NCBI RefSeq assembly: GCF_002735305.1
Contig: NZ_PDYG01000003.1
Location: 1-64,000, forward strand
Direction: 5' to 3'
Source: Agathobacter ruminis
GTDB lineage: Bacteria > Bacillota > Clostridia > Lachnospirales > Lachnospiraceae
Length of the DNA stretch: 64,000 bases
Shown here: piece after piece, positions 9,341 to 62,169 of the stretch
Numbering within the stretch: the stretch's first letter is position 1
Layout: each line of letters begins with the position of its first letter
Notes under the pieces: model-generated
Database searches by the model: none
What the model was told of the DNA's origin: nothing
The model's input: the letters and a program-made list of their open reading frames with translations, nothing else
Program-made: the position numbers and the translations under genes

Positions 9341-10985
9341 GAATCTGATTTTCATATTCCGGATCAGATACAAATTCTATATTTTCGTCCGTATTATGTT
9401 CTGCGGTATGCTTATTGGAAAGTTTCACTTTCTCATATGCGCCCATCTTAAACCATTCATACTCGGAATCAATATGTCCGAGATCAATCGCCCAATAACC
9501 TTTTTGGCTCAATTGATAAGCCAGCACTTTTGCAGCCGGTCCAAGCATCAAAAGAATCAGTTTTTCCTTACCATACTGAGTGATTGCTTCCATGATACGG
9601 TCTTTCATATCATACGCATTTCTTGATGGCCCGATGATGCGTGCAATGGATTTCGCATTGGCAAACAGATCATTGCCGCAGCCGGAACGAGATGTTGCCC
9701 CCTCCACAATCAGGATATCTCGTCCTTCCCAAATTTGTTTCAGTTTCGCGAAATAGCCTGCTGATTTGGATTTATCTTCCAAATCAATATACGGCCGTGA
9801 AATAAATGTTGAACCATACCACGGTGCTGTGCAGATTTCGCGATAAAAATTTAGATCTTTTTGCAGATTCAATTCCCAGAAATGGCGACAGTTGCTGTTA
9901 TATCGTTCTCGATTGTTAAATACATCCGACACACAAATCAGACAGTTTTCATTGCTCTTTTGCTGAAGAATATGCTTTAAATCATCTCCCAGCTGCACAG
10001 AATAATCCTGATAAGTGATCGAGCGTCCGCGAATCAAATCCATCTCACCGTCTCCAAAACGTGCAACAGAACAGTGATGTTTCAAAATATAATCCAGCGA
10101 ATCATCGATGTCTTTCACTTCAAAATCTACCGCAGACTGCTTTTGTCTGGAAATCGTCAGTGCCCGCAGCAAATCCTGTTTGGTAAAACATCCACCGGCG
10201 CAAACCGGTTGTAAATCCCGCACATTCTGGCAATATTTGCGATACTTCTCGTCATCGGTCTCCTGCACCTGTCTTTGTGCATCTTCCCAATCAGAAGCAA
10301 CAATTCCGATTCCGTTTTCCTTTACAAATTTGGCAATACACATATGTTCTTTTACAACAACAGGAATTCCTGCCGAAATGCATATACCAAGTTCAAGGGG
10401 CTGATTCATGGTATCATCCGACCAGACTTTCCCGAACCCACCCAATGATAAAGCGGTAATCAAATGGGATGGCTTTTTTGAACAGTCAATCGAATGAATC
10501 TCTTTTGTATTTACATGATCTGTGACAAGGCTGTCCGTCGGATAATCCTCAATTGTCCGTATGACAACACGATTTACAATCAAACCATATTCTACCAGAG
10601 AATGATGCATTTCTTTTGATGGCAATATGATAGCACTCGCGCGATTCAAAAAACGAACCGATTCCTCCAATTGATTCGGCTGCATTTGATTCACCATAAT
10701 AATCACACGAAGATTGCGATACGCCTGCATCTTATTCATCAACATTTCTTCAAAACGTTTTCCGTTGCTGGTCGGATATTGCAATACGATTGTGTCATCC
10801 GCAGAAAGCGATGCAATAATTCCATCAATGCGATGGCTCAATTCGTTATCATCATCTGCCGTTTCAGGCAGATAATAAATCCCCAGTTCTTTAAATCGCA
10901 AATCATTTGCGATCTGAGCCACAATCGACTGTCTTGTTGCATTTGCGGAAATCAAACCATTAATTTTGCTAATGTGAAAACCCAT
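9327..10985 (-). CDS. Two-domain glycosyltransferase: Gtf3-like plus GT-D (DUF1792)
   Basis: A 552-residue fusion. Residues 1-285 resemble Gtf3 (MGFHISKINGLISANATRQS, ELSHRIDGIIASL, DDTIVLQYP, GGFGKVW, ELGICISAGIPVVV). Residues about 290-525 match the GT-D fold first described for streptococcal DUF1792 enzymes, with the metal-binding DxE in RFGDGEMDLIRG (FGDGE at 310-314), then ICVSDVF, SRPYIDLEDK, ILIVEGATSRSGCGNDLF and IDLGHIDSEYEW. In streptococci separate GT-D and Gtf3 enzymes act one after another on serine-rich adhesins; here both activities appear on one chain. AGGGGAG precedes the ATG. It follows the sensor kinase gene by 15 bp, so both are co-transcribed. Confidence 0.85.
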   Translation of the reverse strand: MGFHISKINGLISANATRQSIVAQIANDLRFKELGIYYLPETADDDNELSHRIDGIIASLSADDTIVLQYPTSNGKRFEEMLMNKMQAYRNLRVIIMVNQMQPNQLEESVRFLNRASAIILPSKEMHHSLVEYGLIVNRVVIRTIEDYPTDSLVTDHVNTKEIHSIDCSKKPSHLITALSLGGFGKVWSDDTMNQPLELGICISAGIPVVVKEHMCIAKFVKENGIGIVASDWEDAQRQVQETDDEKYRKYCQNVRDLQPVCAGGCFTKQDLLRALTISRQKQSAVDFEVKDIDDSLDYILKHHCSVARFGDGEMDLIRGRSITYQDYSVQLGDDLKHILQQKSNENCLICVSDVFNNRERYNSNCRHFWELNLQKDLNFYREICTAPWYGSTFISRPYIDLEDKSKSAGYFAKLKQIWEGRDILIVEGATSRSGCGNDLFANAKSIARIIGPSRNAYDMKDRIMEAITQYGKEKLILLMLGPAAKVLAYQLSQKGYWAIDLGHIDSEYEWFKMGAYEKVKLSNKHTAEHNTDENIEFVSDPEYENQILVKL

Positions 10986-48019: not shown

Positions 48020-50659
48020 TTAGTGTTTCTCGGCGATAGCTGCCTGTGCCGCTGCAAGACGTGCAATCGGAACACGGAATGGTGAACATGATACATAATC
48101 AAGACCAATCTTGTGGCAGAATTCAACAGATGAAGGATCTCCACCGTGCTCTCCACAGATTCCGATGTGAAGGTTAGGATTAACCGGCTTACCAAGCTTG
48201 ATAGCGGTCTCCATTAATTTACCAACACCGTTCTGATCCAACTTAGCGAATGGATCGTTCTCGAAGATCTTTGTATCATAGTAAGCATTTAAGAACTTAC
48301 CAGCGTCATCACGAGAGAATCCGAATGTCATCTGAGTTAAGTCGTTGGTACCGAAGCAGAAGAAGTCAGCTTCCTTAGCGATTTCGTCAGCTGTAAGAGC
48401 TGCACGAGGAATCTCGATCATGGTACCTACTTCGTACTCAAGGTTTACGCCAGCAGCCTTGATTTCTGCATCAGCAGTCTCAACTACTACATTCTTAACG
48501 TACTTAAGTTCCTTAACCTCACATACAAGTGGGATCATGATTTCAGGCTTAACATTCCAATCCGGATGAGCCTTCTGTACTTCGATAGCTGCACGGATAA
48601 CAGCCTTTGTCTGCATCTTAGCAATTGAAGGATAAGTTACAGCAAGACGGCATCCTCTGTGTCCCATCATTGGGTTGAACTCGTGAAGTGAATCAATGAT
48701 GTTCTTGATTTCTTCTACAGACTTATTCTTAGCCTTTGCAAGCTTCTCGATATCAGCAGCTTCTGTAGGAACGAACTCATGAAGAGGTGGATCCAAGAAA
48801 CGGATGGTAACTGGGCATCCTTCAAGAGCTTCATAAAGAGCCTTGAAGTCTCCCTGCTGATAAGGAAGAATCTTCTCAAGAGCTTCTTCTCTTTCTTCTT
48901 CTGTATCAGAGCAGATCATCTCACGGAAAGCAGCAATTCTTTCCGGCTCGAAGAACATATGCTCTGTACGGCAAAGTCCGATACCTTCTGCTCCAAGCTC
49001 GCGAGCCTTCTTAGCATCTGCAGGAGTATCTGCATTGGTACGAACCTTTAATTTTCTGAACTCGTCAGCCCAAGCCATTACACGGCCGAACTCACCAGCG
49101 ATCTTAGCGTCAACGGTAGGAATCAATCCAGCGTAGATGTTACCTGTTGTTCCGTCGATAGAAATCTCAGAACCTTCAGTAAATGTAGTTCCGGCAAGAG
49201 TGAACTTCTTGTTCTCCTCGTCCATAGCGATGTCGCCACATCCGGATACGCAGCAAGTTCCCATACCACGAGCAACTACAGCAGCATGTGAAGTCATACC
49301 ACCACGAACAGTCAGGATACCCTGAGCAGCCTTCATACCGGTGATATCTTCCGGAGAAGTCTCAAGACGTACAAGTACGACCTTCTCTCCTCTTGCAGCC
49401 CATGCTTCTGCATCATCAGCTGTAAATACAACCTTACCACAAGCAGCTCCCGGAGATGCTCCAAGACCCTTTCCAAGTGGAGTTGCAGCCTTAAGTGAAG
49501 CAGCATCGAACTGTGGATGAAGAAGTGTATCAAGGTTACGAGGATCGATCATTGCTACTGCTTCTTCAGGTGTCTTATGTCCTTCATCAACAAGGTCACA
49601 TGCAATCTTAAGAGCTGCAGGAGCAGTTCTCTTACCGTTACGGCACTGAAGCATGTATAACTTCTTGTTTTCTACTGTGAATTCCATATCCTGCATATCA
49701 TGGTAGTGGTTCTCAAGAGTCTCACAAACCTTGATAAATTCAGCATATGCTTCTGGGAATTCCTTCTCCATCTCAGCGATTGGCATTGGAGTACGAACAC
49801 CAGCTACTACGTCTTCACCCTGTGCATTGATGAGGAACTCACCCATAAGCTTGTTCTCACCTGTTGCAGGATCACGAGTAAATGCAACACCTGTACCGGA
49901 CTCGTTGTTTAAGTTACCGAATACCATTGGCATTACGTTTACAGCGGTTCCCCATGAATAAGGGATGTCGTTGTCACGACGATATACGTTAGCACGTGGG
50001 TTATCCCATGACTTAAATACAGCTTCAATAGCGAGCTTCAACTGTACTACAGGATCAGAAGGGAAGTCTTCTCCCAACTGCTTCTTGTATTCAGCCTTAA
50101 ACTGAGAAGCAAGTTCCTTTAAATCAGCAGCGGTAAGATCTACGTCAAACTTAACGCCCTTCTTCTCTTTCATCTCATCGATGAGCTGCTCGAAGTACTT
50201 CTTACCAACTTCCATTACGACGTCAGAGAACATCTGGATGAAACGACGATATGAGTCATATACGAAACGCTCGAAAGCCGGATCTGGGTTACCAGCGATC
50301 ATAGCTGCTACTACTTCATCATTTAATCCAAGGTTAAGGATGGTATCCATCATACCTGGCATTGAAGCACGAGCTCCTGAACGAACAGATACAAGAAGAG
50401 GATTCTTAAGATCTCCAAACTTCTTTCCGTTAACTTTCTCCATCCAAGCTACACCTTCCATAGCCTGGCCCATGATTTCATCGTTAATCTTGCGTCCGTC
50501 CTCATAGTACTGAGTACATGCTTCAGTAGTAATGGTAAATCCCTGCGGTACAGGAAGACCGATTTCAGTCATCTCTGCAAGGTTAGCACCCTTACCACCA
50601 AGTAAGTTGCGCATGGTCATGTTACCTTCTTGGAAGGTATAAACCCACTTGTTTGCCAT
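48020..50659 (-). CDS. ppdK: Pyruvate, phosphate dikinase
   Basis: A full-length 879-residue enzyme that interconverts pyruvate, ATP and Pi with PEP, AMP and PPi in glycolysis/gluconeogenesis of anaerobes. The ATP-grasp N-domain starts MANKWVYTFQEGNMTMRNLL with LGGKGANLAEMTEIGLPVPQ. The phosphohistidine is in GGMTSHAAVVARGMGTCCVS (near residue 455), and the PEP-site Cys is near GICGEHGGDPSS. The last codons (IAEKH) come from DNA of the inserted element: the crossover lies in the codons for AQAAIA. AGGAGG precedes the ATG. The gene is transcribed towards the element. Confidence 0.97.
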   Translation of the reverse strand: MANKWVYTFQEGNMTMRNLLGGKGANLAEMTEIGLPVPQGFTITTEACTQYYEDGRKINDEIMGQAMEGVAWMEKVNGKKFGDLKNPLLVSVRSGARASMPGMMDTILNLGLNDEVVAAMIAGNPDPAFERFVYDSYRRFIQMFSDVVMEVGKKYFEQLIDEMKEKKGVKFDVDLTAADLKELASQFKAEYKKQLGEDFPSDPVVQLKLAIEAVFKSWDNPRANVYRRDNDIPYSWGTAVNVMPMVFGNLNNESGTGVAFTRDPATGENKLMGEFLINAQGEDVVAGVRTPMPIAEMEKEFPEAYAEFIKVCETLENHYHDMQDMEFTVENKKLYMLQCRNGKRTAPAALKIACDLVDEGHKTPEEAVAMIDPRNLDTLLHPQFDAASLKAATPLGKGLGASPGAACGKVVFTADDAEAWAARGEKVVLVRLETSPEDITGMKAAQGILTVRGGMTSHAAVVARGMGTCCVSGCGDIAMDEENKKFTLAGTTFTEGSEISIDGTTGNIYAGLIPTVDAKIAGEFGRVMAWADEFRKLKVRTNADTPADAKKARELGAEGIGLCRTEHMFFEPERIAAFREMICSDTEEEREEALEKILPYQQGDFKALYEALEGCPVTIRFLDPPLHEFVPTEAADIEKLAKAKNKSVEEIKNIIDSLHEFNPMMGHRGCRLAVTYPSIAKMQTKAVIRAAIEVQKAHPDWNVKPEIMIPLVCEVKELKYVKNVVVETADAEIKAAGVNLEYEVGTMIEIPRAALTADEIAKEADFFCFGTNDLTQMTFGFSRDDAGKFLNAYYDTKIFENDPFAKLDQNGVGKLMETAIKLGKPVNPNLHIGICGEHGGDPSSVEFCHKIGLDYVSCSPFRVPIARLAAAQAAIAEKH
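48032..48049 (-). repeat. attL-like 18-bp repeat inside ppdK
   Basis: GGCGATAGCTGCCTGTGC, identical to 28329-28346. On the minus strand it encodes AQAAIA of the PPDK C-terminus in both copies. Confidence 0.6.
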
Positions 50660-50770: not shown

Positions 50771-52489
50771 TCACTCTTGTTTTTCTTGATTTTCAATCTT
50801 TTGCTGCTTTTTTTGATTTCTGACTACCACGATGGTCACCGTAATCAATGCTACCAGCACTACCAAACCAAACATAAACGGAAAAAGCAGGCCCCTTTCG
50901 CTCAAATATGTAACCACATTATCATTGGCGGATTTCGGAGCATCTTCATCTTCAATATTTGTTTTTTCATTCGGTCCCGGATCTTCCGGTCCGTCATCTC
51001 TCGGTACATCATCATTAGGGATGACCACAACATCATCTCCGTTATCCGGATTTTCCGGATTCTGTGGGTTCTCCGGATTGTTTGGGTTCTCCGGATTGTT
51101 TGGATTCTCCGGATTGTTTGGATTCTCCGGATTTTCCGGATTCTCTGGATTCTCCCCTGTAACGGCACGGTATACAAAATCAAAATGATTCTCTGCCGGA
51201 TCAGCGGAAAGAACAAATGAGAGATTGTAATCGCGAGGAACATATCCTTCAATATAACGATATGCGATTACAGGCTCATCTCCGATGTTACCGTAAAATG
51301 TCTGGCTTTCTGCAATTTCGACATTATTTTCATCTACATATCGAACCGTATATTCTGTCAAATCCGCCGGGATTCCATATGCAACAACATAATCCTGATC
51401 CTCTTCCACGGTAAAAGATGATTTGGATACGGTATTGTTGTCTCTTCCCGCCAGACGGATTCCGCGCACATAATATTTCTTGGTATCAACGGTCACCACA
51501 GTCTGCGCGGTACAGCTTAACACATCGCCATACTCCAGTCCCGTGATGACAAGTCTGTTACCGGCTTTCACGCGTTTGGAATGAACCGAAGCATGATTGC
51601 CGGCTGCTTTGTTGACATATACGCAGGTTCCATCTGCAAAAGTTCCATGATTACCTGCCGAAATAGAAACGGTATAGGTATAATTGGAATTCTTTGCAAA
51701 TAATATCATCGGACGAAGCAGACCGGAAATGCCAATCATTGCAATCAACAGAATGGCCGTCACTGCAGTCTGATTTTTCTTTTGTTTACGTTGCTTGATA
51801 AAACCAAGCAAAATCAGAATCATACCGGCTGCCATCAATGCAATCGCACCAAGGAAGAAAATATCTCCTGTCTTCACCGGATGCGGATGCTTTGGCAAAA
51901 CCGTCTTGGTCGGTGTCTCAACAGCAAAATTCATCATCAATTTTGCGAGGGTATCCTGATAGATATTGCCCTGGCTCTCTCCGTCGAGACCAACCTGAAG
52001 CTTTACAACTCCGCTCTCGTTTTCTTTTAATGATGTAATGAAAAAGAAATGGTCCAATGAGTTTGTCGCTTCGTACAGGCCACCGTTTGTCTTTGAGAAC
52101 CATGAGTTGGAATCTCCGCCAACAGTATCACTACTGTACAAGGTTTCAACTTTTCCGTTTTTCGGCTCGAAAGTAAGGATGTAAGTATATCCACCATTTT
52201 CAGCCACTGCCTGTGCATCTTCGAGTGACTGAAGTACGGAATTGGACATGTACCAGTCTGTTGCAACATCACTGTTATTATGAATATTGATTGCAAATGC
52301 CACCGTATCACCCGGCTCCATCTCAGCCACTGATGCAGCTACGGTAGTCGAGTCAAACGTACTTTTCATTTCTTTGCCTGTGAACTCACAATCACCGGCC
52401 TCTGTGGTCGTATCATTTGCATATATTGCCACGCTTCCCATATGAAGCAGGAGCAACATCGTCAAAAAATAGTATTTGATTTTTTTCAT
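50771..52489 (-). CDS. Surface protein with two membrane anchors and an NPEN repeat stalk
   Basis: A 572-residue protein. A signal peptide (residues 1-25) is followed by an extracellular domain to about 205, a hydrophobic pair near 212-275 (IFFLGAIALMAAGMILILLG; VTAILLIAMIGISGLL), a second extracellular domain with a MucBP-like fold (YTVRYVDENNVEIAESQTFY), a Pro-Asn-Glu repeat stalk (NPEN units), an acidic stretch and a C-terminal membrane helix with a basic tail. No LPXTG is present. As the last gene of the pilus/TasA-like operon it may anchor or cap the fibres (inference). Confidence 0.7.
   Translation of the reverse strand: MKKIKYYFLTMLLLLHMGSVAIYANDTTTEAGDCEFTGKEMKSTFDSTTVAASVAEMEPGDTVAFAINIHNNSDVATDWYMSNSVLQSLEDAQAVAENGGYTYILTFEPKNGKVETLYSSDTVGGDSNSWFSKTNGGLYEATNSLDHFFFITSLKENESGVVKLQVGLDGESQGNIYQDTLAKLMMNFAVETPTKTVLPKHPHPVKTGDIFFLGAIALMAAGMILILLGFIKQRKQKKNQTAVTAILLIAMIGISGLLRPMILFAKNSNYTYTVSISAGNHGTFADGTCVYVNKAAGNHASVHSKRVKAGNRLVITGLEYGDVLSCTAQTVVTVDTKKYYVRGIRLAGRDNNTVSKSSFTVEEDQDYVVAYGIPADLTEYTVRYVDENNVEIAESQTFYGNIGDEPVIAYRYIEGYVPRDYNLSFVLSADPAENHFDFVYRAVTGENPENPENPENPNNPENPNNPENPNNPENPQNPENPDNGDDVVVIPNDDVPRDDGPEDPGPNEKTNIEDEDAPKSANDNVVTYLSERGLLFPFMFGLVVLVALITVTIVVVRNQKKQQKIENQEKQE
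51048..51156 (-). repeat. 18-bp tandem repeats encoding NPENPN units
   Basis: About six near-identical 18-bp units (TTCTCCGGATTGTTTGGA on the plus strand) encode the Pro-Asn-Glu stalk. Copy number is likely to vary by slippage without breaking the frame. Confidence 0.75.
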
Positions 52490-52503
52490 CACTTCACTGC
52501 TCC

Positions 52504-53298
52504 TTACTTATTCAACAGATAAAGAGTGCCATCTGCTTTGACATCCATATTCACACCCCATGCAGAAAGAATCGCATCTTTCGCATTATGAGTCTGCACT
52601 GCATCGACATCCGCTCTGAGAACAAAAGATGTTCCATCATAATCATAGGTGGAAATGATATTGGTATATTTATGTGTCACACCGTTTTCATCTGTCGACT
52701 CTTCCGTTGTCGAGGTTTCATGTACTTTATATGCAATCTTACCGTTGATTGCAATATAGTCACACAATAATGAGGTTGTCTTCCCCGGTGTGAGTATCTT
52801 TGTATAATACCAATCGCTCTTTTCCGAAGTACGGGAATCGGTATCCTCAACCCACTCTTCGTTGCCGGTATAGCCAATCAGAATATCCTGCGGATCCAGG
52901 TCTGTGCGCTTTTGCAGCTCCCCGTCTTCGGTCGGGGTAACCCAGTAATGATACAGCTGAACTCGAACATATTCATCGATTGTGCCGCTGTTTGTCACGG
53001 ACAATTCTTCTTTGTAATGCTTGTTCAAAATCAATTGATCATCGCCCGCATCGGAAAGCATACTGGTCAAAAGATCTCCGTTATGCTCTTTCCATGTATC
53101 ATTGCTGTGTGTATAATCACGCCAGCTGATTGCTTTATCATTTTCATTTAATGTCACACCAATCGATTTGACATCCATCTGGGCGATATAATTCTGGCTG
53201 TAATAATTCAATGCTGCGGCTGCTGTACCGGACAATGAAGCGCCCAGCATAATCATACCGCTGATTACTAGCCATTTTGGAAGCTTCTTCTTATTCAT
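52504..53298 (-). CDS. TasA/camelysin-like fibre protein 2 (SipW-type signal)
   Basis: A 264-residue secreted protein. The N-terminal signal MNKKKLPKWLVISGMIMLGA is followed by AAALNYYSQNYIAQMDV, the pattern of SipW-dependent signals of TasA/CalY proteins, and a beta-rich domain with SVTNSGTIDEYVRVQLYHYW, which is the characteristic TasA strand. TasA forms biofilm fibres in Bacillus. GAGGAGG precedes the ATG at 53298, which overlaps the previous gene by 8 bp. Confidence 0.75.
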   Translation of the reverse strand: MNKKKLPKWLVISGMIMLGASLSGTAAAALNYYSQNYIAQMDVKSIGVTLNENDKAISWRDYTHSNDTWKEHNGDLLTSMLSDAGDDQLILNKHYKEELSVTNSGTIDEYVRVQLYHYWVTPTEDGELQKRTDLDPQDILIGYTGNEEWVEDTDSRTSEKSDWYYTKILTPGKTTSLLCDYIAINGKIAYKVHETSTTEESTDENGVTHKYTNIISTYDYDGTSFVLRADVDAVQTHNAKDAILSAWGVNMDVKADGTLYLLNK

Positions 53299-53803
53299 GG
53301 TCTGCCTCCTCATCTACTGTATATTCGGCCTGCATCGACCAGTCAGCATATTCCGGCACATACATATTGCCGTCTTCATCGCACATCGCAGGAACACATT
53401 CCTGGATGACGATAATATTAAAATCGCTGATTACATCCTTGGATTTTTCGATTGCAGCGACAATGGAATCCGTTGTCTCGCCAACCGCAACGACATCCTT
53501 GTAGTAATAATAGCCGTCTTTTTCCGTCCACTTATCACCTGTGACTTTTACTTGGAACTGGCTGCCGCAGATCACCTTGACACGCACAAATACCGGAACT
53601 TCTCCCACGTTTTCAACAGAGATGGTCTTTTTCCAGTCACGATATTCCTCATGCAATTCAGTCTCATGACCCAATCGAATCGGAACGGTACCTTTTGCTG
53701 TGACATAAGTTGTAAAATATGCATATATCCTTTCTGCAGCAAATCCTGTCGCCAATAATAAAAGCAGACAAGGCAGAATCATTTTTGCTCTAAATTTTCT
53801 CAT
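53291..53803 (-). CDS. TasA/camelysin-like fibre protein 1 (SipW-type signal)
   Basis: A 170-residue secreted protein: MRKFRAKMILPCLLLLLATG, then AERIYAYFTTYVTAKGTVPI, a SipW-type signal with AYFT, followed by TISVENVGEVPVFVRVKVIC, the strand pair seen in TasA/CalY. It ends acidic. It is smaller than Bacillus TasA and may be a minor or accessory fibre subunit like TapA. The ATG at 53803 overlaps the preceding stop (ATGA). Confidence 0.72.
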   Translation of the reverse strand: MRKFRAKMILPCLLLLLATGFAAERIYAYFTTYVTAKGTVPIRLGHETELHEEYRDWKKTISVENVGEVPVFVRVKVICGSQFQVKVTGDKWTEKDGYYYYKDVVAVGETTDSIVAAIEKSKDVISDFNIIVIQECVPAMCDEDGNMYVPEYADWSMQAEYTVDEEADHE

Positions 53804-54744
53804 TCTTGCGTCCACTCCCAACTGTAAATTGTATCACCGTTTGCCTGTTGATCTTCATGTATCGTATAATGATTTACCACTCCGGTACCATATACCAGTC
53901 TGTGGTTGTAATCATTTACAAACTCTGCAATATTACTCTCTTTTTCCGTAATCTTGTTTAATACAATTTCAGCCGATGACGAAATACTGTAGGAAGCGGC
54001 TGCATCCAGTTCTTTGACGGTCACTGTACTTCCTGCAGGAATATCTTTGATGGTAATGCTCTGTGTGCCGGCTTTTTCGAAGCGCATGCCTACCACATCC
54101 GAATAAACCACCTTGTTTTGGTCATCCACCGCTGTGATATCAAATACAAACATCGGGGCACCCGTCAGATTGTCATAAGCACTCAAAGTCTTTGTAATTG
54201 TAAGTTCAGCCGTCAAAGGCTTTTGTTCCACTTTGACGCTTACCGAATCCTGGTTCGGGACAAATGCCATAGAAGGAAGGAATTGATAGGTATGATATCC
54301 CGTCCTGACTTCATCAAGATGGATGAAATACAGTCCCGGAACGATGTAGACACTTTCACCGACCGTTCCGGTTTCATCCGGTTGTTCATCGGCAATCAAA
54401 GCCTCTATCTCGTCCGATACCGCAAGTAGTTCATCGGCTGTCACATCAGCAGACTGATTGGCTTTGTCGACAATGTCCTGTACGCCGGTGTCTTTGTAGG
54501 CATCCTTTACCTGATAGTCCCCCTCTTCATCCATCTGCGCAATCAGATAAACTTCGTAATCGGCACCGGCCATATACAAATCTGTATAATTACTCTCCTC
54601 CGACTCCGCAAATTTTACAGTAAATTTCTTTGGCGACAAATCATATGTTGCCAGGGCAGATGATGAGCCAAACAACATGATAAGCATTGTCACCAGGCAG
54701 ATAGATGCTATTTTCCCCTTTCGGCAATTCCATGAGTGTTTCAT
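53800..54744 (-). CDS. Pilin-like secreted protein without sorting signal
   Basis: A 314-residue protein with a signal peptide (CLVTMLIMLFGSSSALA) and two domains: residues 35-165 with YMAGADYEVYLIAQ like pilin N-domains, and residues about 180-290 with LTITKTLSAYDNLTGAPMFV and TVKELDAAASYSISS, the DUF5979/DUF7601-like collagen-binding B-type fold. There is no LPXTG or C-terminal helix, so it cannot be attached by sortase as such; it may be a secreted partner of the fibre proteins. Confidence 0.7.
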   Translation of the reverse strand: MKHSWNCRKGKIASICLVTMLIMLFGSSSALATYDLSPKKFTVKFAESEESNYTDLYMAGADYEVYLIAQMDEEGDYQVKDAYKDTGVQDIVDKANQSADVTADELLAVSDEIEALIADEQPDETGTVGESVYIVPGLYFIHLDEVRTGYHTYQFLPSMAFVPNQDSVSVKVEQKPLTAELTITKTLSAYDNLTGAPMFVFDITAVDDQNKVVYSDVVGMRFEKAGTQSITIKDIPAGSTVTVKELDAAASYSISSSAEIVLNKITEKESNIAEFVNDYNHRLVYGTGVVNHYTIHEDQQANGDTIYSWEWTQE

Positions 54745-54770
54745 GTAAACGCTCCCTTCTCACTAAACAT

Positions 54771-55595
54771 TCATCGAAAACGATTTATAATCTTGCGCTT
54801 TACAATGACTGCAATCACGCTATAAATAATCAATAATATGACTCCTACAAAAACCGATACAAGAAGCGGATTGATTTGATTTGCTTCCGAAACGATTACG
54901 GCATTTGCCTTCGAAGTCGGGATTCTGTGTCCCCGTACAAGCAAACGATGCGAGTTGATTCCATATGGTGTACAGGTAACCAATGTACAGTAGTCTTTAT
55001 CCGATTCGATTTTTAATTCATTCAATTCTTCCGGAAGCACAATTCTGATCTGATCCACCTGATAGGTCAGTGTGTTCCCGAGTGTATGGAGGAAAAAGAT
55101 ATCTCCTTCCACCATCTGATCAATATCGGTAAACAATTTTGCGGATGGCAATCCTCTATGGCTCGAAAGCACACAATGTGTGCTGCGACCGCCAATCGGA
55201 AAGGAGGAGCCTTCGATATGACCGACTCCAATCTGCAAGACCTCTTCCGACAGTCCATGATAAATCGGCAATGAGATGTCGACACTTGGTATTTCAACAT
55301 ATCCCATGATTCCGGTTCCGGTCACATCCAGAATGGATTCATATTTTTGATATTCTTCGTCTGTCATTTCCCAACGGTCTGTCTTGGAAAGCAAAGCTTC
55401 ATTATATGCTTTTGCCTCTTCATACATCCGGGTGGCTTCTTCATTTGACAATTCGTCGACCGCATCCGTATATGCTGCAATTGCTTTGGATTGATGAAAG
55501 GAATTCCACCAATCAGAGAAAGTCGGATACAGCAATAAGGACAATCCTAGAACGCCCAATACAATTAATACTATTATGGACCAGTTTTTTTTCAT
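54771..55595 (-). CDS. Class C (pilus-type) sortase
   Basis: A 274-residue membrane enzyme. An N-terminal signal anchor (WSIIVLIVLGVLGLSLLLYP) and a C-terminal membrane helix (LLVSVFVGVILLIIYSVIAV) flank a sortase core with catalytic H146 (LSSHRG), C208 (TLVTCTPYGINSHRLLVRGH) and R217. A lid segment with Asp-x-Trp (TDRWEM) is present before the core. It polymerises the LPSTG pilin of this operon. The ATG at 55595 has AAGGAG. A long hairpin separates it from the pilin gene. Confidence 0.92.
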   Translation of the reverse strand: MKKNWSIIVLIVLGVLGLSLLLYPTFSDWWNSFHQSKAIAAYTDAVDELSNEEATRMYEEAKAYNEALLSKTDRWEMTDEEYQKYESILDVTGTGIMGYVEIPSVDISLPIYHGLSEEVLQIGVGHIEGSSFPIGGRSTHCVLSSHRGLPSAKLFTDIDQMVEGDIFFLHTLGNTLTYQVDQIRIVLPEELNELKIESDKDYCTLVTCTPYGINSHRLLVRGHRIPTSKANAVIVSEANQINPLLVSVFVGVILLIIYSVIAVIVKRKIINRFR

Positions 55596-55619
55596 AGAAT
55601 TCTCCTTACGGCTGTATTT

Positions 55620-55659
55620 ATTATTGTGTTCTGCGGAATGAACCGCAGAACACAATAAT
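55620..55659 (-). other. Perfect 17-bp hairpin between pilin and sortase genes
   Basis: ATTATTGTGTTCTGCGG pairs perfectly with its complement around a 6-nt loop. No T-run follows, so it is more likely a messenger-stabilising or processing structure than a terminator. It would favour pilin over sortase production. Confidence 0.7.
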
Positions 55660-55679
55660 CATTTTAAAACTTTTAAAAA

Positions 55680-57185
55680 TTACTGTCTAGCACGAAGCTT
55701 TGATACAGCAACTACTCCAACACCCAGTACAAGGATTGCACCAATCAGATAGATTGCAACGCGTCCTGCACCACCGGTTGAAGGAAGGATAGAACCCTTC
55801 TGGTTTACGATATCTGTTACAAGACCACCGTCGATCATACCGTCAGTCTTGGTAACGGTGAATTCTACAACTCCACCGTCTGCAACTGCAGCAAGATCTG
55901 TGAGCTGTGGATCATCTGATAAAATTTCATGATCTGCGGTAACGGTAAATGTAATATCATCGATGGTATTGAATCCGTCCGGAGTCACGGTCTCGCTCAA
56001 TACATACTGACCATCATCAAGGCCGTTAAATGTAAATACGGTACCTTCTTCTGTTGTGATTACATCAATCACTTTTTCAGTGCCGTCTGCAAGAATTTTC
56101 TTTAATGTGAATTCTGCACCTGCAAGTGGCTCATTGTCCTGGTCAACCTTGTTTACAACTACCTTGTAGGTAAATGCGATAACTACATCTTTGTTGGTCT
56201 TTCCATGTCCATCGTTATTTGGATTGTTTGAGTACTCAAGATATACTTCGTTTGGATTTCCAAGTGCGCCGATTACAGCATTTTCATTCAGTGTAGAAGT
56301 GTAACGAACAACAATCTTGGTATTCTTGTTAACTGAAGTAATCTTCTTTAAATCTGCAAATACAATATCAAATCCGTCATTTCTGGTTGTTACTGTATAA
56401 GAGCTTGCATCAATTACGGTTTCGGTTTTGCCTTCTACTGCATATACCACTGCATCATTGTTGAAGGTAAGTCCGTTTGATTCGGTATCGTGGAATGCAT
56501 AGTAGTAAGTATCAAAGTTGGCATAATTTGATGGCAAGGTTCCTGTTAACTGGAATGGGATACTGTCGCCGATGTCATAGTCAGCGGAATCCTGCCAGTC
56601 AGAGGTTTCTCCGGTAGTATCATTGACATCTTTAATCTTCTTTTCAACGGTAACAGTGTCAGACTTTGCATTCACAGTTACATTTCCGACAACTTCCATG
56701 ATGTATAAAGTATATGCATCACCATCTTTCTGATCGAGACTTCCGTCCATATCTTTTACAAGATAGTATCCTGATGGAAGACCTGAAATGGTATAAGTGC
56801 CTTTGTTGTAATCTCCTGACTTATATGCATTGGATGCATTGAGAATCTTTCCGATTTTAGCTGCAGCTGCATCAGCTTCTGCTGACTTTGATGTAATTTC
56901 GCCAAGTGCTTTTGCAAAATCATCTGCTGATCCGGAATTGATTAATGTTTTTACTTTTGTCTGGTCTACGCCATTTCCCCATTTTACATTTGAAAGTGTG
57001 GTTCCGTCCTGCGAAAGATCACCGGCAAGGATTTGATATGCCTCATAGGTGTGTCCTTCTGCATCATTCTTGATGGTAATTGAATAATTACCGTTTGTTG
57101 TGGTGTCAGCAAAGACCATAGATGTCATTGCCAACGTAAGTACCATTGCAAGTGCAAAGGCAAGAACTTTGGTAAACTTTTTCAT
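55680..57185 (-). CDS. Major pilin with LPSTG sorting signal
   Basis: A 501-residue backbone pilin. The signal peptide ends near MVFADTTTN. An N-terminal domain (YEAYQILAGDLSQDG) is followed by the D2/isopeptide domain (TVTVEKKIKDVND with the candidate polymerising Lys), then a CnaB domain with an E-box (GQYVLSETVTPDGF). The sorting signal LPSTG starts at residue 467, followed by a hydrophobic helix and KLRARQ. It is assembled by the class C sortase encoded next. Its cytosolic expression is likely the highest of the operon, given the hairpin behind it. Confidence 0.92.
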   Translation of the reverse strand: MKKFTKVLAFALAMVLTLAMTSMVFADTTTNGNYSITIKNDAEGHTYEAYQILAGDLSQDGTTLSNVKWGNGVDQTKVKTLINSGSADDFAKALGEITSKSAEADAAAAKIGKILNASNAYKSGDYNKGTYTISGLPSGYYLVKDMDGSLDQKDGDAYTLYIMEVVGNVTVNAKSDTVTVEKKIKDVNDTTGETSDWQDSADYDIGDSIPFQLTGTLPSNYANFDTYYYAFHDTESNGLTFNNDAVVYAVEGKTETVIDASSYTVTTRNDGFDIVFADLKKITSVNKNTKIVVRYTSTLNENAVIGALGNPNEVYLEYSNNPNNDGHGKTNKDVVIAFTYKVVVNKVDQDNEPLAGAEFTLKKILADGTEKVIDVITTEEGTVFTFNGLDDGQYVLSETVTPDGFNTIDDITFTVTADHEILSDDPQLTDLAAVADGGVVEFTVTKTDGMIDGGLVTDIVNQKGSILPSTGGAGRVAIYLIGAILVLGVGVVAVSKLRARQ

Positions 57186-57203
57186 GTCTGATTCTCCTTT
57201 TCT

Positions 57204-60200
57204 TTATCCTTTTTTGTTACCAACTTTGTACCCAATTCCGATCGATGCGATCAGAACAAAAACAATACCAAGCGGGATTGGCCATTTTGCCGCTCCCATT
57301 CCTCCGGTCTCCGGAAGTTCGTACTGGATTGCTTTGTTGACCAGCGTAATCTTACCGGTCACAATCGCAGTCTCAGGACTGATTCCGTCGAATCCGTAGG
57401 TTACCCATTCATACCCCTGTACCGATCGCTCTTCCACATAATACTTGCACGGGAATGCTTTCTGCACCCCATCCACTTCGTGGTAACAGTAACGATTCAG
57501 GTTGTCGAATACATAATGCCAATAGCCATTTGCATCCGGCTGTATTTTGATATTCTGAGCAATGATCAGATCGCGATTTGCATTTGGATCATTGTCGGAA
57601 TAATAGGTATCAATGCGATGCAGGTCCAAAACAATTTCGGACACATCCGTTTTTTGGGTTGCTTTACCGTCTCCATCTCTCCAGATTTTTTCCACTTCGA
57701 TAGAAATCGGTTTGATATCATTGACTACATACTCACTTCCGCCATGTTTCAGGAGATTAATTGCGCGAATACCGCTCGGCAAATCAATCTTATCTCTGTC
57801 ACTGAAGAAGAAATAATAGCGGGCCGGTTCTGCCGGCAGTTCATATCCGTCCGGAGCCTTTGTTTCCATCACATAATACAAAGTGTCCTTCTTGAATGCA
57901 TATTGCTGTTCATCCTCTGTCTGGTAATGAATGCTGAATGTTCCGAATTCATTTGTCTTGTATACTTTGCGCGTATCGATATCATTCGATCCGTCAGTGT
58001 ATTCAAACAATGTGAATCTCGCATTCTTCAAAGCATTTCCGAAGTTTGCTTTCTCAACCTTGTAGAAGGTATATTGGAAGTTTCCGGATACAACCGCATT
58101 ATGTGTTGACTTGGACCATTCATATTCTTCCTTGTCATCAATCGAGATATATGATGTTCCGGAAATGGTTGCCGTATTCTTCACACCCAGTGTCGGATGT
58201 TCTACACTCTCAAAGTTTCCTGCCAGAATATAATCATATTCCAGAATCAGGAAGGTGCTGTCAGGAATCGTCGCTGTAATCTTGTTGACATGGCGATCGA
58301 CATCACCGGTCACATCAGCGGAATACTCAGTGGACTCATATTCCCAGTTCCAATTCGTCATCTCATTCTTTGTAATCGTGCCGTCGGAACCGATCTTGCA
58401 GACATAGAGCCTAACCGTATCCTGTACCAGTGAGACCGTACGGTCTTCATCATCTTTGTCAATCGCATAAGACAAAATGTCTTCCAGCTGCAATGTGTCG
58501 CTTCCCGCAACCAGATCATCTGCATATTCATTGATCTTGATGGAATAATGAATTCGCTGTGCCGATGAATCCCATGTTCCGGTCTTTTTCACGACTTCAT
58601 ATTCTTCTTTCCACCACTGTGTCTGTGATCCTTCCAAAACCAGATCGCCCATTTGAATGGTTGCATAGTTAGTGAATGAATATTTATTTCCCTTTTTGTA
58701 ATTCTCAATGCGATCCGTTTTTACCTTGCAATGATATGTGATGCGAATCTTGGAATTAAAATCCATCGGTTGATCATTGGTGCGTGAAAGCTTGATGACC
58801 ACCTGTCCGCTATCTTTGTCAAATCCAAACTGATAATGCACATTCTCATCGCTCGAGTACTTGAATATATTGCCTTCCACGATGTTGCCATCCTGCGGAA
58901 TCGAATCAATCGAACATTTCATCCATCCGACTTCCATGTCCACAGATTCAAGAGAGATTCCCGTCGGCAGATAATCTGTAATCGTTGCGGTGTCATATCC
59001 CTGAAGGGAATCAAGCTTTGCTTCGACAACCCAGGTCAGCTTGCCGCTGTCATCCACCACTTCGCTGTCAGTTTCATTGCCGTCGGCATCCGTCTTTTTG
59101 AATGATGCCTTCTGGTAAGTATAGGTCGCTGATGCAGATGCGCCATCCACATCAAATGTATTATTGAATTCCTGTCTGTTTGCGGCAGTTGACAAATCTA
59201 CGCTTGAGAAATAATGCAGTTCCAATCCACTCGGGGAATATGCAATTGCATCCGTCAACTCAAAGCTGAAACCGTAAACATAATATTCTTCACAGAATTT
59301 CTCGGTCAAATCAGACCAGTTGACCTGTCTACTCCATTCTGAGAAGTCACGCTTGTTTGCATAGACACGGAACCTGTCGGTTTTGCCTGCCCAAGGCGCT
59401 GAATTTTGCAGCATCTGATAAATGTTTAAGAGCTGATCGTAGCTGAAATACTGACGACATTCATTCCAAATGCTCAGATTATCACGAATCAATGCGCCCT
59501 TTGGCAATCCGTTTGACGAAGATGTAATCTTTGTCGACCACTCCAGCGTCAGCGTATTCATATCTGCCGAAATTGAAGCCCCGTCATTTTGCTTTTCGAC
59601 CGTTGTCTTGTCGCCAGGTTCCGGATCATCATGATGTTCTTCTTCATGATACGGATAAACCGTTGCGGTTGCTTCTTTGCCCTCAATCGTTACCTTGTTG
59701 ACAGTCGGTTCTGTGTCGCTTGCCAGCTCAGTGTTGTAATTGATGGTATACGCCTGTGTGTTTTGTCCGTTCTTAACTGCCTTGAATCGAATTCCTGTGA
59801 TATTGCGGCTGCGATCATAAATGTATTCGTATCCATTATTCGGCGAAACCGTAAAATCTTTGATGTCATATCCATGGAACATATCATCTTTTAATTCCAT
59901 GCCGGCGATATTCACGCGATTGGAGTTTACATAAATGCTCCATACGCCTCTGCCGTTTGAATTCCATCCGCTTTTCTTAATATCCAGTCTCTTGTCGATG
60001 CGGAAGGAATAGAAATCGCTATCTTCCACATATTTACCCTTCTTTTTGTCGAAGGAAGAAATCTTAACATCGTTTCGACCGGTCAGTGTGGTATCCGTCG
60101 GTACATTCAACGTATACTTGTATGTAATCTCATATCCGTTGCAGACTAGCGTCTTTCCATCCGATGATTTAGAGGCCGCTTCAAGCTTTGGCAGTGTTAA

Positions 60201-61085
60201 CGAAATCGTTTTCGTAGCATCCGAATTTTTAGAAGTCTCAGCCTTTACCTTAACCTGTTCTCCGATATTTGTGACTGTGTAGCCACCACCCTCTTTTTGA
60301 GTAATGGATGCTTTCTTTACCGTGATGCTGTCGAATTTGGCAGACATATTATCGCTTCCGCTCAATTTCAAGACATCCTGGAATGCAATGACATCAGGTG
60401 TTCCGTTAACCGAATAAGCAATTACTTTGTAAGTAATGCTGTTTTTGTCATCTGCCACTGTTCCGCTCTTATCAACCTGCAGATCGTATTCTGTGGTCAC
60501 CTGTTTCAACGGAATATCGATGCTCAGGTTGTCCGTGAATTGCACATGAATCTTGTCATTGTTCTCCACGGTCTGCTTGGAATAAATTCCCGCAAAATAG
60601 ACAGATCCCTGAACCGCTCCACCGTTTAGATTCGCGACATATTTGTCATTGAATGACAGCAATACCGAATAAGAGCCGTTGTTGTTTTTTATGAATTTGT
60701 AACTTCCTGCTGTGATATTGTTTGAATCATAAAGAATATAATTCGTGTCCAGCAATGATTGATCCATACTGATCCCGTTCGGATAGGTGTATGAATAATC
60801 CTTGCTGTCCGCTGAGAGTGTACCCTTCGGCAACTTAAACTCAATATCCATGGAATCACCGATATAATAATCGTTGATTGGATCATAAGTAATGTCGCCT
60901 CTCTCATATACCGCAGTCAGATAAGGTTTTAAATCCCTTGTCGATGCTGATGCGGGTTTGATTAAAGAGTACAATGAGATTGCAAGTACTATGCAAGAAA
61001 GTGCCGCAACTGCACTTATCCAAATATTTCGTTTCTTGTGACGCTGTAATCTTACACTTCCAAGACGCTCGATATCCTGATTCAC
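57204..61085 (-). CDS. Large LPETG-anchored pilus tip/ancillary adhesin
   Basis: A 1293-residue surface protein. After a cytoplasmic start and a hydrophobic segment (ISAVAALSCIVLAISLYSLI) come several adhesin-type domains with isopeptide-like folds, SpaA-type (KNARFTLFEYTDGS ... YYVMETKAPDGYELP, an E-box) and CnaB-type (EVEKIWRDGDGKATQKTDVS) repeats. LPETG is at 1257-1261 with a membrane helix and KKG tail. It probably forms the pilus tip or a side subunit. It starts with GTG at 61085 behind GGGGAGGGGAG, 19 bp before the pilin gene start region ends upstream of it in the same operon. Confidence 0.88.
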   Translation of the reverse strand: MNQDIERLGSVRLQRHKKRNIWISAVAALSCIVLAISLYSLIKPASASTRDLKPYLTAVYERGDITYDPINDYYIGDSMDIEFKLPKGTLSADSKDYSYTYPNGISMDQSLLDTNYILYDSNNITAGSYKFIKNNNGSYSVLLSFNDKYVANLNGGAVQGSVYFAGIYSKQTVENNDKIHVQFTDNLSIDIPLKQVTTEYDLQVDKSGTVADDKNSITYKVIAYSVNGTPDVIAFQDVLKLSGSDNMSAKFDSITVKKASITQKEGGGYTVTNIGEQVKVKAETSKNSDATKTISLTLPKLEAASKSSDGKTLVCNGYEITYKYTLNVPTDTTLTGRNDVKISSFDKKKGKYVEDSDFYSFRIDKRLDIKKSGWNSNGRGVWSIYVNSNRVNIAGMELKDDMFHGYDIKDFTVSPNNGYEYIYDRSRNITGIRFKAVKNGQNTQAYTINYNTELASDTEPTVNKVTIEGKEATATVYPYHEEEHHDDPEPGDKTTVEKQNDGASISADMNTLTLEWSTKITSSSNGLPKGALIRDNLSIWNECRQYFSYDQLLNIYQMLQNSAPWAGKTDRFRVYANKRDFSEWSRQVNWSDLTEKFCEEYYVYGFSFELTDAIAYSPSGLELHYFSSVDLSTAANRQEFNNTFDVDGASASATYTYQKASFKKTDADGNETDSEVVDDSGKLTWVVEAKLDSLQGYDTATITDYLPTGISLESVDMEVGWMKCSIDSIPQDGNIVEGNIFKYSSDENVHYQFGFDKDSGQVVIKLSRTNDQPMDFNSKIRITYHCKVKTDRIENYKKGNKYSFTNYATIQMGDLVLEGSQTQWWKEEYEVVKKTGTWDSSAQRIHYSIKINEYADDLVAGSDTLQLEDILSYAIDKDDEDRTVSLVQDTVRLYVCKIGSDGTITKNEMTNWNWEYESTEYSADVTGDVDRHVNKITATIPDSTFLILEYDYILAGNFESVEHPTLGVKNTATISGTSYISIDDKEEYEWSKSTHNAVVSGNFQYTFYKVEKANFGNALKNARFTLFEYTDGSNDIDTRKVYKTNEFGTFSIHYQTEDEQQYAFKKDTLYYVMETKAPDGYELPAEPARYYFFFSDRDKIDLPSGIRAINLLKHGGSEYVVNDIKPISIEVEKIWRDGDGKATQKTDVSEIVLDLHRIDTYYSDNDPNANRDLIIAQNIKIQPDANGYWHYVFDNLNRYCYHEVDGVQKAFPCKYYVEERSVQGYEWVTYGFDGISPETAIVTGKITLVNKAIQYELPETGGMGAAKWPIPLGIVFVLIASIGIGYKVGNKKG

Positions 61086-61123
61086 GAGAAACTCCCCTCC
61101 CCTTTTACATTATATGCCTTCTC

Positions 61124-61810
61124 CTAATTGACTTTACGCACTCCCGATAATGGCCAGATGCATAAGTCAACCCTGCCAACAATTTGCTCTTCCGAAATAC
61201 AACCAATGTTTGAATTTCGAGAATCGAGTGATACGCTTCTATGATCCCCCATCACAAAAATCTTTGACTCCGGAATTTGATACGGAAAATCAAGATTGCA
61301 ATCACCCAATGCTTTGTCAATCAAATACGGCTCATCGATTTCAATATCATTTACATAGACGGTTCCGTCCGCTGATATATTAATCCAATCCCCTGCCGTA
61401 GCAATTACCCTTTTTACTAAAATTTTGTTGTTATAATAAAAAGCAATGATGTCGCCGGTATTAAACTTGGCATTTTTGTTTGCCAAAAGTATTTCCCCCT
61501 CTTCGAGTGTCGGTGCCATAGAGTTGCCCGTCACCTGAAGCACCGGCATAAATACGTTGGATATGATAATTGCAAGTGCTGCCGCAACAATCAGTGTTCC
61601 AATCGTATTAAACAACGATCCGATAAATTTTTGATTATATTTGACCCTTCGCAATTCCTGCCGCAAGTCTTTGACTCGTAAATCATCAAAGTCCTCTTCA
61701 TCGGTCAGGATTTGAACGATGGTATCTTCCGTTGTTTCCTGCTTCTTATGTTTTTGATTATTCTTTTTCGTTTTTCGCAACCATTGTTTCAAGTTTCGTA
61801 ATGACATCAT
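61124..61810 (-). CDS. Type I signal peptidase dedicated to the pilus operon
   Basis: A 228-residue protein. It has an unusual 60-residue basic/acidic cytosolic N-terminus, one membrane helix (GTLIVAAALAIIISNVFMPV) and the peptidase core with Ser97 (GNSMAPTL), Lys133 (KILVKRVIATAGD) and GDHRSVSLDSRNSNIG. The Ser/Lys dyad makes it bacterial P-type, not SipW (Ser/His) type. It probably matures pilins of this operon. The start overlaps the small coiled-coil gene by 53 bp and has a weak ribosome site, so coupled translation is likely. Confidence 0.88.
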   Translation of the reverse strand: MMSLRNLKQWLRKTKKNNQKHKKQETTEDTIVQILTDEEDFDDLRVKDLRQELRRVKYNQKFIGSLFNTIGTLIVAAALAIIISNVFMPVLQVTGNSMAPTLEEGEILLANKNAKFNTGDIIAFYYNNKILVKRVIATAGDWINISADGTVYVNDIEIDEPYLIDKALGDCNLDFPYQIPESKIFVMGDHRSVSLDSRNSNIGCISEEQIVGRVDLCIWPLSGVRKVN

Positions 61811-61967
61811 TTATCCTGCCTGAATTGTTTAACTCCTCCTCCAACGAAGCAACATTTTGTTTTAATTCGCTAAGTTCCTTTCGCAAATGTTCCACCTCTT
61901 TGCTCCGGTCAAGAAGCATTTCCAACAATTCGCTTCTGGATAATTTTTTTAAATCTTTTTGTTTCAT
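61758..61967 (-). CDS. Small coiled-coil protein heading the pilus operon
   Basis: A 69-residue highly charged helical protein (KKLSRSELLEMLLDRSKEVE, HLRKELSELKQNVASLEEEL). Heptad pattern spans most of its length. Similar short proteins precede signal peptidase genes in Lachnospiraceae pilus operons, as I recall, but no function is known. GAAGGGG lies upstream. It overlaps the signal peptidase gene by 53 bp. Confidence 0.65.
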   Translation of the reverse strand: MKQKDLKKLSRSELLEMLLDRSKEVEHLRKELSELKQNVASLEEELNNSGRINDVITKLETMVAKNEKE

Positions 61968-62055
61968 CTTGGTGTTTGCCCCTTCATTTCGAAACCGAGC
62001 ATATAATATCGCATTTTTTCTGAAAAAGTAAATAGGTCTGAGACAATTTTTTTAG

Positions 62056-62117: not shown

Positions 62118-62142
62118 AAAAAAAGGCGGACATTTGTCCGCC
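62118..62142 (-). terminator. glyS terminator
   Basis: GGCGGACA-AA-TGTCCGCC followed by seven T on the minus strand, 28 bp after the stop codon. Confidence 0.9.
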
Positions 62143-62169
62143 TTCCAAAATTCCCAACTTCGAAATGCA

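Follow-up and report, generated by a model that had tools for sequence, protein, structure and literature searches.

How a covalent pilus is ended and held at the cell wall when its operon encodes no conventional base pilin is the question raised by a gene cluster of Agathobacter ruminis, located on the minus strand at positions 50771-61967 of a 64,000-nucleotide stretch of DNA (contig NZ_PDYG01000003.1 of assembly GCF_002735305.1, positions 1 to 64,000), hereafter the window. Sortase pili and TasA-type filaments have been studied as unrelated solutions. An original prediction made from the window alone had placed genes of both kinds in one operon, and this gene set was found entire, in the same order and on the same strand. 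About an even chance is given here to the reading that a covalent sortase pilus is tethered by a BsaA/TasA-type module in place of the conventional LPXTG base pilin. The transcription order is coiled-coil protein, signal peptidase (Sip), LPETG tip, LPSTG shaft pilin, class C sortase (SrtC), pilin-like protein without LPXTG (noLP), Tas1, Tas2 and a stalk membrane protein of 573 aa with the halves StA and StB, the first two genes being additions to the predicted list. The principal features are as follows.

61124..61810, minus strand: Sip, a signal peptidase I of the Ser-Lys (prokaryotic) type, not SipW (TIGR02227, E 7e-37; PF10502, 8e-35).
57204..61085, minus strand: tip, a large LPETG adhesin of 1293 aa with SpaA and Cna_B domains (PF17802, PF05738) and a C-terminal LPETG, transmembrane segment and basic tail.
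55680..57185, minus strand: shaft, the LPSTG major pilin of 501 aa, SpaH/EbpB-like (PF16569, 4e-25; PF17802, 2e-16; NF033902, 3e-24).
54771..55595, minus strand: SrtC, a class C pilus-polymerising sortase (NF033745, 3e-84, 282 bits against a cut-off of 160).
53800..54744, minus strand: noLP, a pilin-like protein of 314 aa without LPXTG, with K171 and the triad K185/E245/N277 (PF19407, 3e-9; DUF5979 domain).
53291..53803, minus strand: Tas1, a BsaA/TasA-superfamily protein with a SipW-type AYFT site.
52504..53298, minus strand: Tas2, a BsaA/TasA-superfamily protein.
51721..52492, minus strand: StA half of the stalk, possibly a TasA-like domain, with a VKTGD sorting-like motif and a transmembrane segment.
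50771..51760, minus strand: StB half of the stalk, with a MucBP-like domain (weak PF06458), Pro/Asn repeats, an I.DE..P motif and a transmembrane segment.

The front half of the cluster is a class C sortase pilus operon as far as its sortase and major pilin are concerned, as SrtC scores over its curated cut-off, and the shaft exceeds the cut-offs of PF16569, PF17802 and TIGR04226 and ends in LPSTG, a transmembrane segment and a basic tail. Tip and shaft are the only LPXTG proteins of the operon, and an LPXTG base pilin is missing. Since the window genome (99.5% complete) contains only two sortases, the operon SrtC and one class B sortase (SrtB; TIGR03064, 170 bits) on another contig, a conventional housekeeping sortase anchor is absent from it. 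The gene of this SrtB (locus L122, contig C27, near 9540-9965) has a BTAD/GGDEF-like regulator on one side and the gene of a conserved protein of 155 aa on the other, and regulators resembling the former adjoin the pilus cluster in loci L014 and L016.

The protein following SrtC suggests how such a pilus might end. The noLP profile matches the C. diphtheriae-type SpaD-like fimbrial subunit 4hss, and K171, K185, E245 and N277 are invariant in 50 of 50 relatives. The last three residues are arranged as in an intramolecular isopeptide bond, while K171 closes the N-terminal domain and is profile-aligned with the YPKN lysine of SpaD 4hss (WxYxVxxYPK pilin motif); in the window noLP the surrounding W.YD motif is gone and the lysine is kept. 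K171 is also present in all 86 short noLP proteins adjoining SrtC. Because the lysine is kept and a sorting signal is lacking, noLP can, judged by its residues, be an acceptor of SrtC but never a donor, which would make it a natural chain stop. In eight adhesins of more than 700 aa with SrtC not nearby, the isopeptide triad is kept in 8/8 and K171 aligns in 3, on which ground the C-terminal part with its conserved tail may be regarded as the common dock and the lysine as going with SrtC. As a separate observation, loci L059, L072, L079 and L015 encode giant adhesins (about 1550-1610 aa) with a noLP-like isopeptide C-terminus, followed directly by tas1-tas2-StA-StB with no SrtC.

The sole model matched by the window Tas1 and Tas2 is TIGR04090, which describes SipW-dependent biofilm proteins of the BsaA family; no Pfam family is matched. 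As the same model matches 56/57 Tas2 and 51/56 Tas1 relatives (counted at E up to 0.1; TIGR04088 in 6/56 of the latter) and the two proteins are mutually homologous (hhalign 98%), their assignment by sequence to BsaA/TasA is firm at the superfamily level. The predicted TasA/camelysin type therefore stands for the superfamily but not for camelysin, as the best model is the BsaA family and no Pfam match to camelysin/M73 was found for Tas1, Tas2 or their relatives. In Tas1, Y29, F30 and T31 are invariant and A28 is nearly so. The AlphaFold2 (AF2) monomer model of Tas2 (predicted local distance difference test score, pLDDT, 88.7) displays a beta-rich fold, in which residues 25-40, directly after the signal peptide, are disordered though strongly conserved, a modelled pattern that is as expected for a TasA-type donor strand. 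In B. subtilis, TasA fibres form through donor-strand exchange rather than as amyloid (PMC9674648), so the term amyloid-like in the original prediction is unsupported and outdated. With one copy each beside the membrane-anchored StA, Tas1 and Tas2 may be only a short adaptor.

The single copies adjoining SrtC would also agree with a role of Tas1 and Tas2 as pilus assembly factors outside the final structure, acting as chaperones or in polymerisation control like streptococcal SipA, or like TapA/CapP in the case of TasA. Precedents for this are the signal-peptidase-like chaperone in streptococcal pilus operons (PMC7900414) and B. cereus CapP, a chaperone-like partner of TasA/CalY (PMC13082335). 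Such a role is nevertheless distinctly improbable, as the nearest family, BsaA, is structural, and the membrane-anchored StA, which always follows Tas2 (all 94 downstream-complete loci), fits a structural stack better.

The terminal gene had been described as a multi-anchored stalk. A membrane-anchored stalk protein is indeed present, and the description can be refined to a fusion of two membrane proteins, StA and StB, which are encoded by separate adjacent genes in most relatives. The fusion (window 50771-52492 and L011:1362-3119) occurs only in the window and its closest relative, both of whose genomes lack SipW. In StA a secreted domain leads into the motif [VPIA][KQR]TGD, which precedes a transmembrane segment and then a basic tail. 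Among 57 relatives, T207 and D209 never vary and G208 is almost invariant; 19 of these relatives are matched by the srtB_target model TIGR03063. The [KQR]TGD signal thus appears sortase-B-like. The hhalign scores of StA (95% to Tas1, 81% to Tas2) are no more than suggestive of a third TasA-like protein. Foldseek matches of the Tas2 and StA models to beta-sandwich proteins, and of StA also to a C. perfringens enterotoxin domain and the cannula protein CanA, had marginal E values and very low TM-scores and were not used.

Tas proteins would normally be matured by a SipW-type signal peptidase, and such a peptidase adjoins 56 of the 65 downstream-complete clusters among the named relatives described below. 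Above noise, a search of the window genome with TIGR02228 gave no SipW and only three peptidases, all of the Ser-Lys type and one of them the operon Sip; the close relative G031 is likewise without SipW. In TasA, cleavage by LepB-type peptidases is impeded by an aromatic residue at P2' (PMC10269814), and Tas1 retains its AYFT site, with an aromatic P2' residue, although the genome has no SipW. In this species the operon Sip, whose homologues stand at the head of the operon in several relatives, or another signal peptidase would take over.

Some relatives carry a SrtB gene next to the cluster, SipW and SrtB being adjacent genes in L041, L054 and L067. In four loci (L013:701-1972, L014:2359-3651, L016:3638-5020 and L021:12501-13838) the two are single polypeptides of 423-460 aa, with an N-terminal SipW-type peptidase and a C-terminal class B sortase matched by TIGR02228 and TIGR03064 in the same open reading frame (ORF). 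Such a fusion may connect Tas maturation with wall anchoring in the manner of a Rosetta stone. The downstream gene in general was also considered as srtB, which was rejected, as most of these genes encode stand-alone SipW-type peptidases and the SipW-SrtB fusions were found only in seed proteins.

The original prediction had proposed a survey of TasA-like genes behind sortase C, and the co-occurrence was recovered elsewhere, kept across many genera and concentrated in one supported Tas2 clade. Its absence from other genomes, which had been named in advance as a refutation, is thereby contradicted. A scan with a single window protein as query gave no matches; with the Tas2 alignment as query, 80 named loci were found, picked by similarity to cluster-bearing seeds. 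Nearly all of them are labelled Lachnospiraceae or other Clostridia, and the cluster is present in culturable commensals such as Blautia (for example Blautia parvula) and Eubacterium ramulus. In L022, a metagenome-assembled genome (MAG) labelled Muribaculaceae, the cluster is nearly identical to that of a Blautia MAG of the same study, and this genome is probably misbinned. The order tip-pilin-srtC(-srtC)-noLP-tas1-tas2-StA-StB(-SipW) recurs in about 80 named loci, far beyond chance. All 69 upstream-complete loci contain noLP and tas1, and 64 contain srtC; StA and StB are present in all 65 downstream-complete loci. In a less seed-biased check, 396 genomes sampled evenly from the same family contained 46 strong Tas2 places, at least 34 of them directly behind SrtC (two place lists and 20 fetched regions), while SrtC is carried by only 135 of the 396 genomes.

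In the tree of 97 Tas2 proteins, 12 without noLP or SrtC split off with support of 100/99, and the other 85 all have noLP, 70 of them with SrtC. In more distant relatives tas2-StA-StB is accompanied by neither noLP nor pilin nor SrtC, but tas1 and SipW are often close by. These gene contents would be read most simply as a single event that brought a BsaA-type locus and a SrtC pilus locus together, with some later losses, and the tree is compatible with more than one joining. The separability of the modules in evolution, together with the weakness of the sorting-like motif, could favour mere co-transcription, in which the Tas module hitch-hikes beside the pilus locus by chance or in a mobile surface-protein island. 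This is the least probable of the explanations weighed here and is given very little credence, as the same order with tight junctions is found in about 80 loci and on the Tas2 tree the linkage is strongly clustered, requiring 8 changes where shuffles give 23.8. Separately, in the BsaA-type loci L157, L163 and L156 several tas1-like paralogues surround SipW and SrtC is missing; these loci possibly encode multi-subunit matrix filaments.

The 12 divergent loci bear on the main rival as well, since tas2-StA-StB works alone there without SrtC, noLP or pilin. According to this rival, two separate fibres would come from a shared operon: the SrtC pilus would be an ordinary one, and a BsaA/TasA-type matrix filament would carry noLP at its tip. 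The two would be co-expressed for biofilm formation and remain unjoined. The SrtC-less versions headed by giant adhesins with a noLP-like C-terminus point the same way, as does the formation of filaments by BsaA without sortase in C. perfringens (PMC7395162). Two unjoined fibres are still considered unlikely, as they leave unexplained the pilin-motif lysine of a noLP without sorting signal, the lack of both an LPXTG base pilin and another sortase, and the persistence of the linkage through most of one clade.

In the preferred reading, a tethered pilus, SrtC would attach the LPETG tip and polymerise the LPSTG shaft, after which K171 of noLP would serve as the last SrtC acceptor; without a sorting signal the chain would stop there, leaving noLP as the base. 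The C-terminal isopeptide domain of noLP with its conserved tail would bind first to Tas1 and next to Tas2, a docking that probably uses strand complementation via the conserved Tas N-termini. Tas1 and Tas2 would be seated on the membrane protein StA, whose [KQR]TGD signal may be joined to the wall by the class B sortase; StB would be another partner tethered to the membrane. In favour of the tethered pilus, the window genome has no other sortase to anchor a canonical pilus. The complete hybrid organelle, in which a SrtC pilus ends on noLP and is held by non-covalent strand complementation to a TasA/BsaA stack with a SrtB-fixed base, SipW and SrtB being fused in some species, is put at somewhat less than even. 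The composite surface fibre of the original prediction is accordingly retained in that the two halves belong together by conserved linkage, whereas for the Tas half a base or anchor is suggested instead of a second fibre, on the grounds of the signal peptidases, the SipW-SrtB fusion, the pilin-motif lysine of noLP and the sortase-B-like signal.

Several observations weigh against a tethered pilus. In C. perfringens BsaA polymerises without the neighbouring srtB (PMC7395162), and the window contains no SrtB gene. The StA motif of the window, VKTGD, is neither NPxTG nor LPxTG and is not matched by srtB_target, below which two-thirds of StA proteins fall. The window Tas1 and Tas2 reach only 25 and 26 bits for TIGR04090, below the curated cut-off of 60 bits. 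In Foldseek searches against the PDB, the Tas2 model gave no match at E<=0.001 and neither it nor the StA model gave a significant TasA match; the profiles of Tas1, Tas2 and StA likewise had no matches among PDB sequences. Finally, six short noLP proteins that have no SrtC close by retain K171 as well.

Several known systems share features with the cluster. The SrtC pili of the SpaA/SpaD and EbpB types (C. diphtheriae, Enterococcus) are alike in their LPXTG tip and shaft, class C sortase, isopeptide domains and pilin-motif lysine in a shaft-like N-domain, whereas here noLP and the Tas/StA module stand in place of an LPXTG base pilin and the genome has no third sortase. The sipW-bsaABCRSD operon of C. 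perfringens (PMC7395162) is similar in that its BsaA family model, TIGR04090, is the one matched by Tas1 and Tas2, and in the SipW-type peptidase and class B sortase found nearby in relatives. In contrast to the present cluster, its srtB is dispensable for BsaA polymers and its operon contains no SrtC pilus, while here SrtC pilus genes are joined and the window genome is without SipW. The operons tapA-sipW-tasA of B. subtilis and sipW-tasA-calY of B. cereus share the SipW-type cleavage site with aromatic P2' and secreted TasA-superfamily proteins, but they have neither a sortase pilus nor a wall-anchored StA, and solved TasA was not significantly matched by the present proteins in either sequence or fold. 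The FCT pili of S. pyogenes (SipA-Cpa-FctA-SrtC-FctB) likewise have a signal-peptidase gene in the pilus operon; their biogenesis can involve a class B sortase, and a minor pilin stops polymerisation (PMC7900414). FctB, however, has its own sorting signal and is SrtA-anchored, unlike noLP, which has none, and the Sip of the present operon retains its Ser-Lys dyad.

Every part is of a known kind, and the join of a sortase pilus with a Tas module is provisionally new, as no description of it was found in the open-access literature searched, subscription papers and preprints lying outside that search. If the pilus is tethered as proposed, common gut Lachnospiraceae would terminate and anchor a covalent pilus in a novel manner, wall-held pili in genomes without other sortases would be explained, and BsaA/TasA-like proteins would gain a role beyond the biofilm matrix.

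The remaining features concern the boundaries and transcription of the operon, which is flanked by glyS upstream and ppdK downstream.

62121..62146, minus strand: intrinsic terminator of glyS, strong (11-bp stem, then a T-run), separating glyS from the operon.
62003..62032, minus strand: candidate sigma-A-like operon promoter TTTACT-18-TATTAT, 9/12, proposed from position only, such sites being not above chance in the region.
61758..61967, minus strand: first gene of the operon, an ORF for a coiled-coil protein of 69 aa, with homologues at the same place in L011, L012 and L013.
55620..55659, minus strand: perfect 17-bp hairpin in the pilin-srtC gap, without U-tract (z -5.4).
48020..50659, minus strand: ppdK (pyruvate phosphate dikinase), outside the system, with its own promoter-like site at 50764-50737; it flanks the operon also in L011 and L012.

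The coiled-coil protein has no NCBIfam match and no significant Pfam family. The operon had been predicted to run without a break, which agrees with the overlaps at noLP/Tas1 (4 nt) and Tas1/Tas2 (8 nt) and the coding gaps elsewhere, but not with the pilin-srtC junction, the only real coding gap, where 84 nt contain the hairpin. An internal promoter or terminator, named in advance as an argument against one operon, was not found above chance: the intrinsic terminators called on the minus strand all lie outside the operon, and promoter-like sites are no more frequent in the region than by chance. One 10/12 promoter-like site in the pilin-srtC gap was rejected as an internal promoter, as the gaps of 68 loci are no richer in such sites than shuffles (9/68 loci against 9.5 expected).

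The hairpin at the pilin-srtC junction is kept in position in 57 loci with differing sequences, its median z being -4.0 compared with -0.7 to 0 at four other junctions. As a T-tract follows it in only 5/62, a function as terminator was rejected, and mRNA processing or stabilisation yielding more pilin than sortase is the more likely role.

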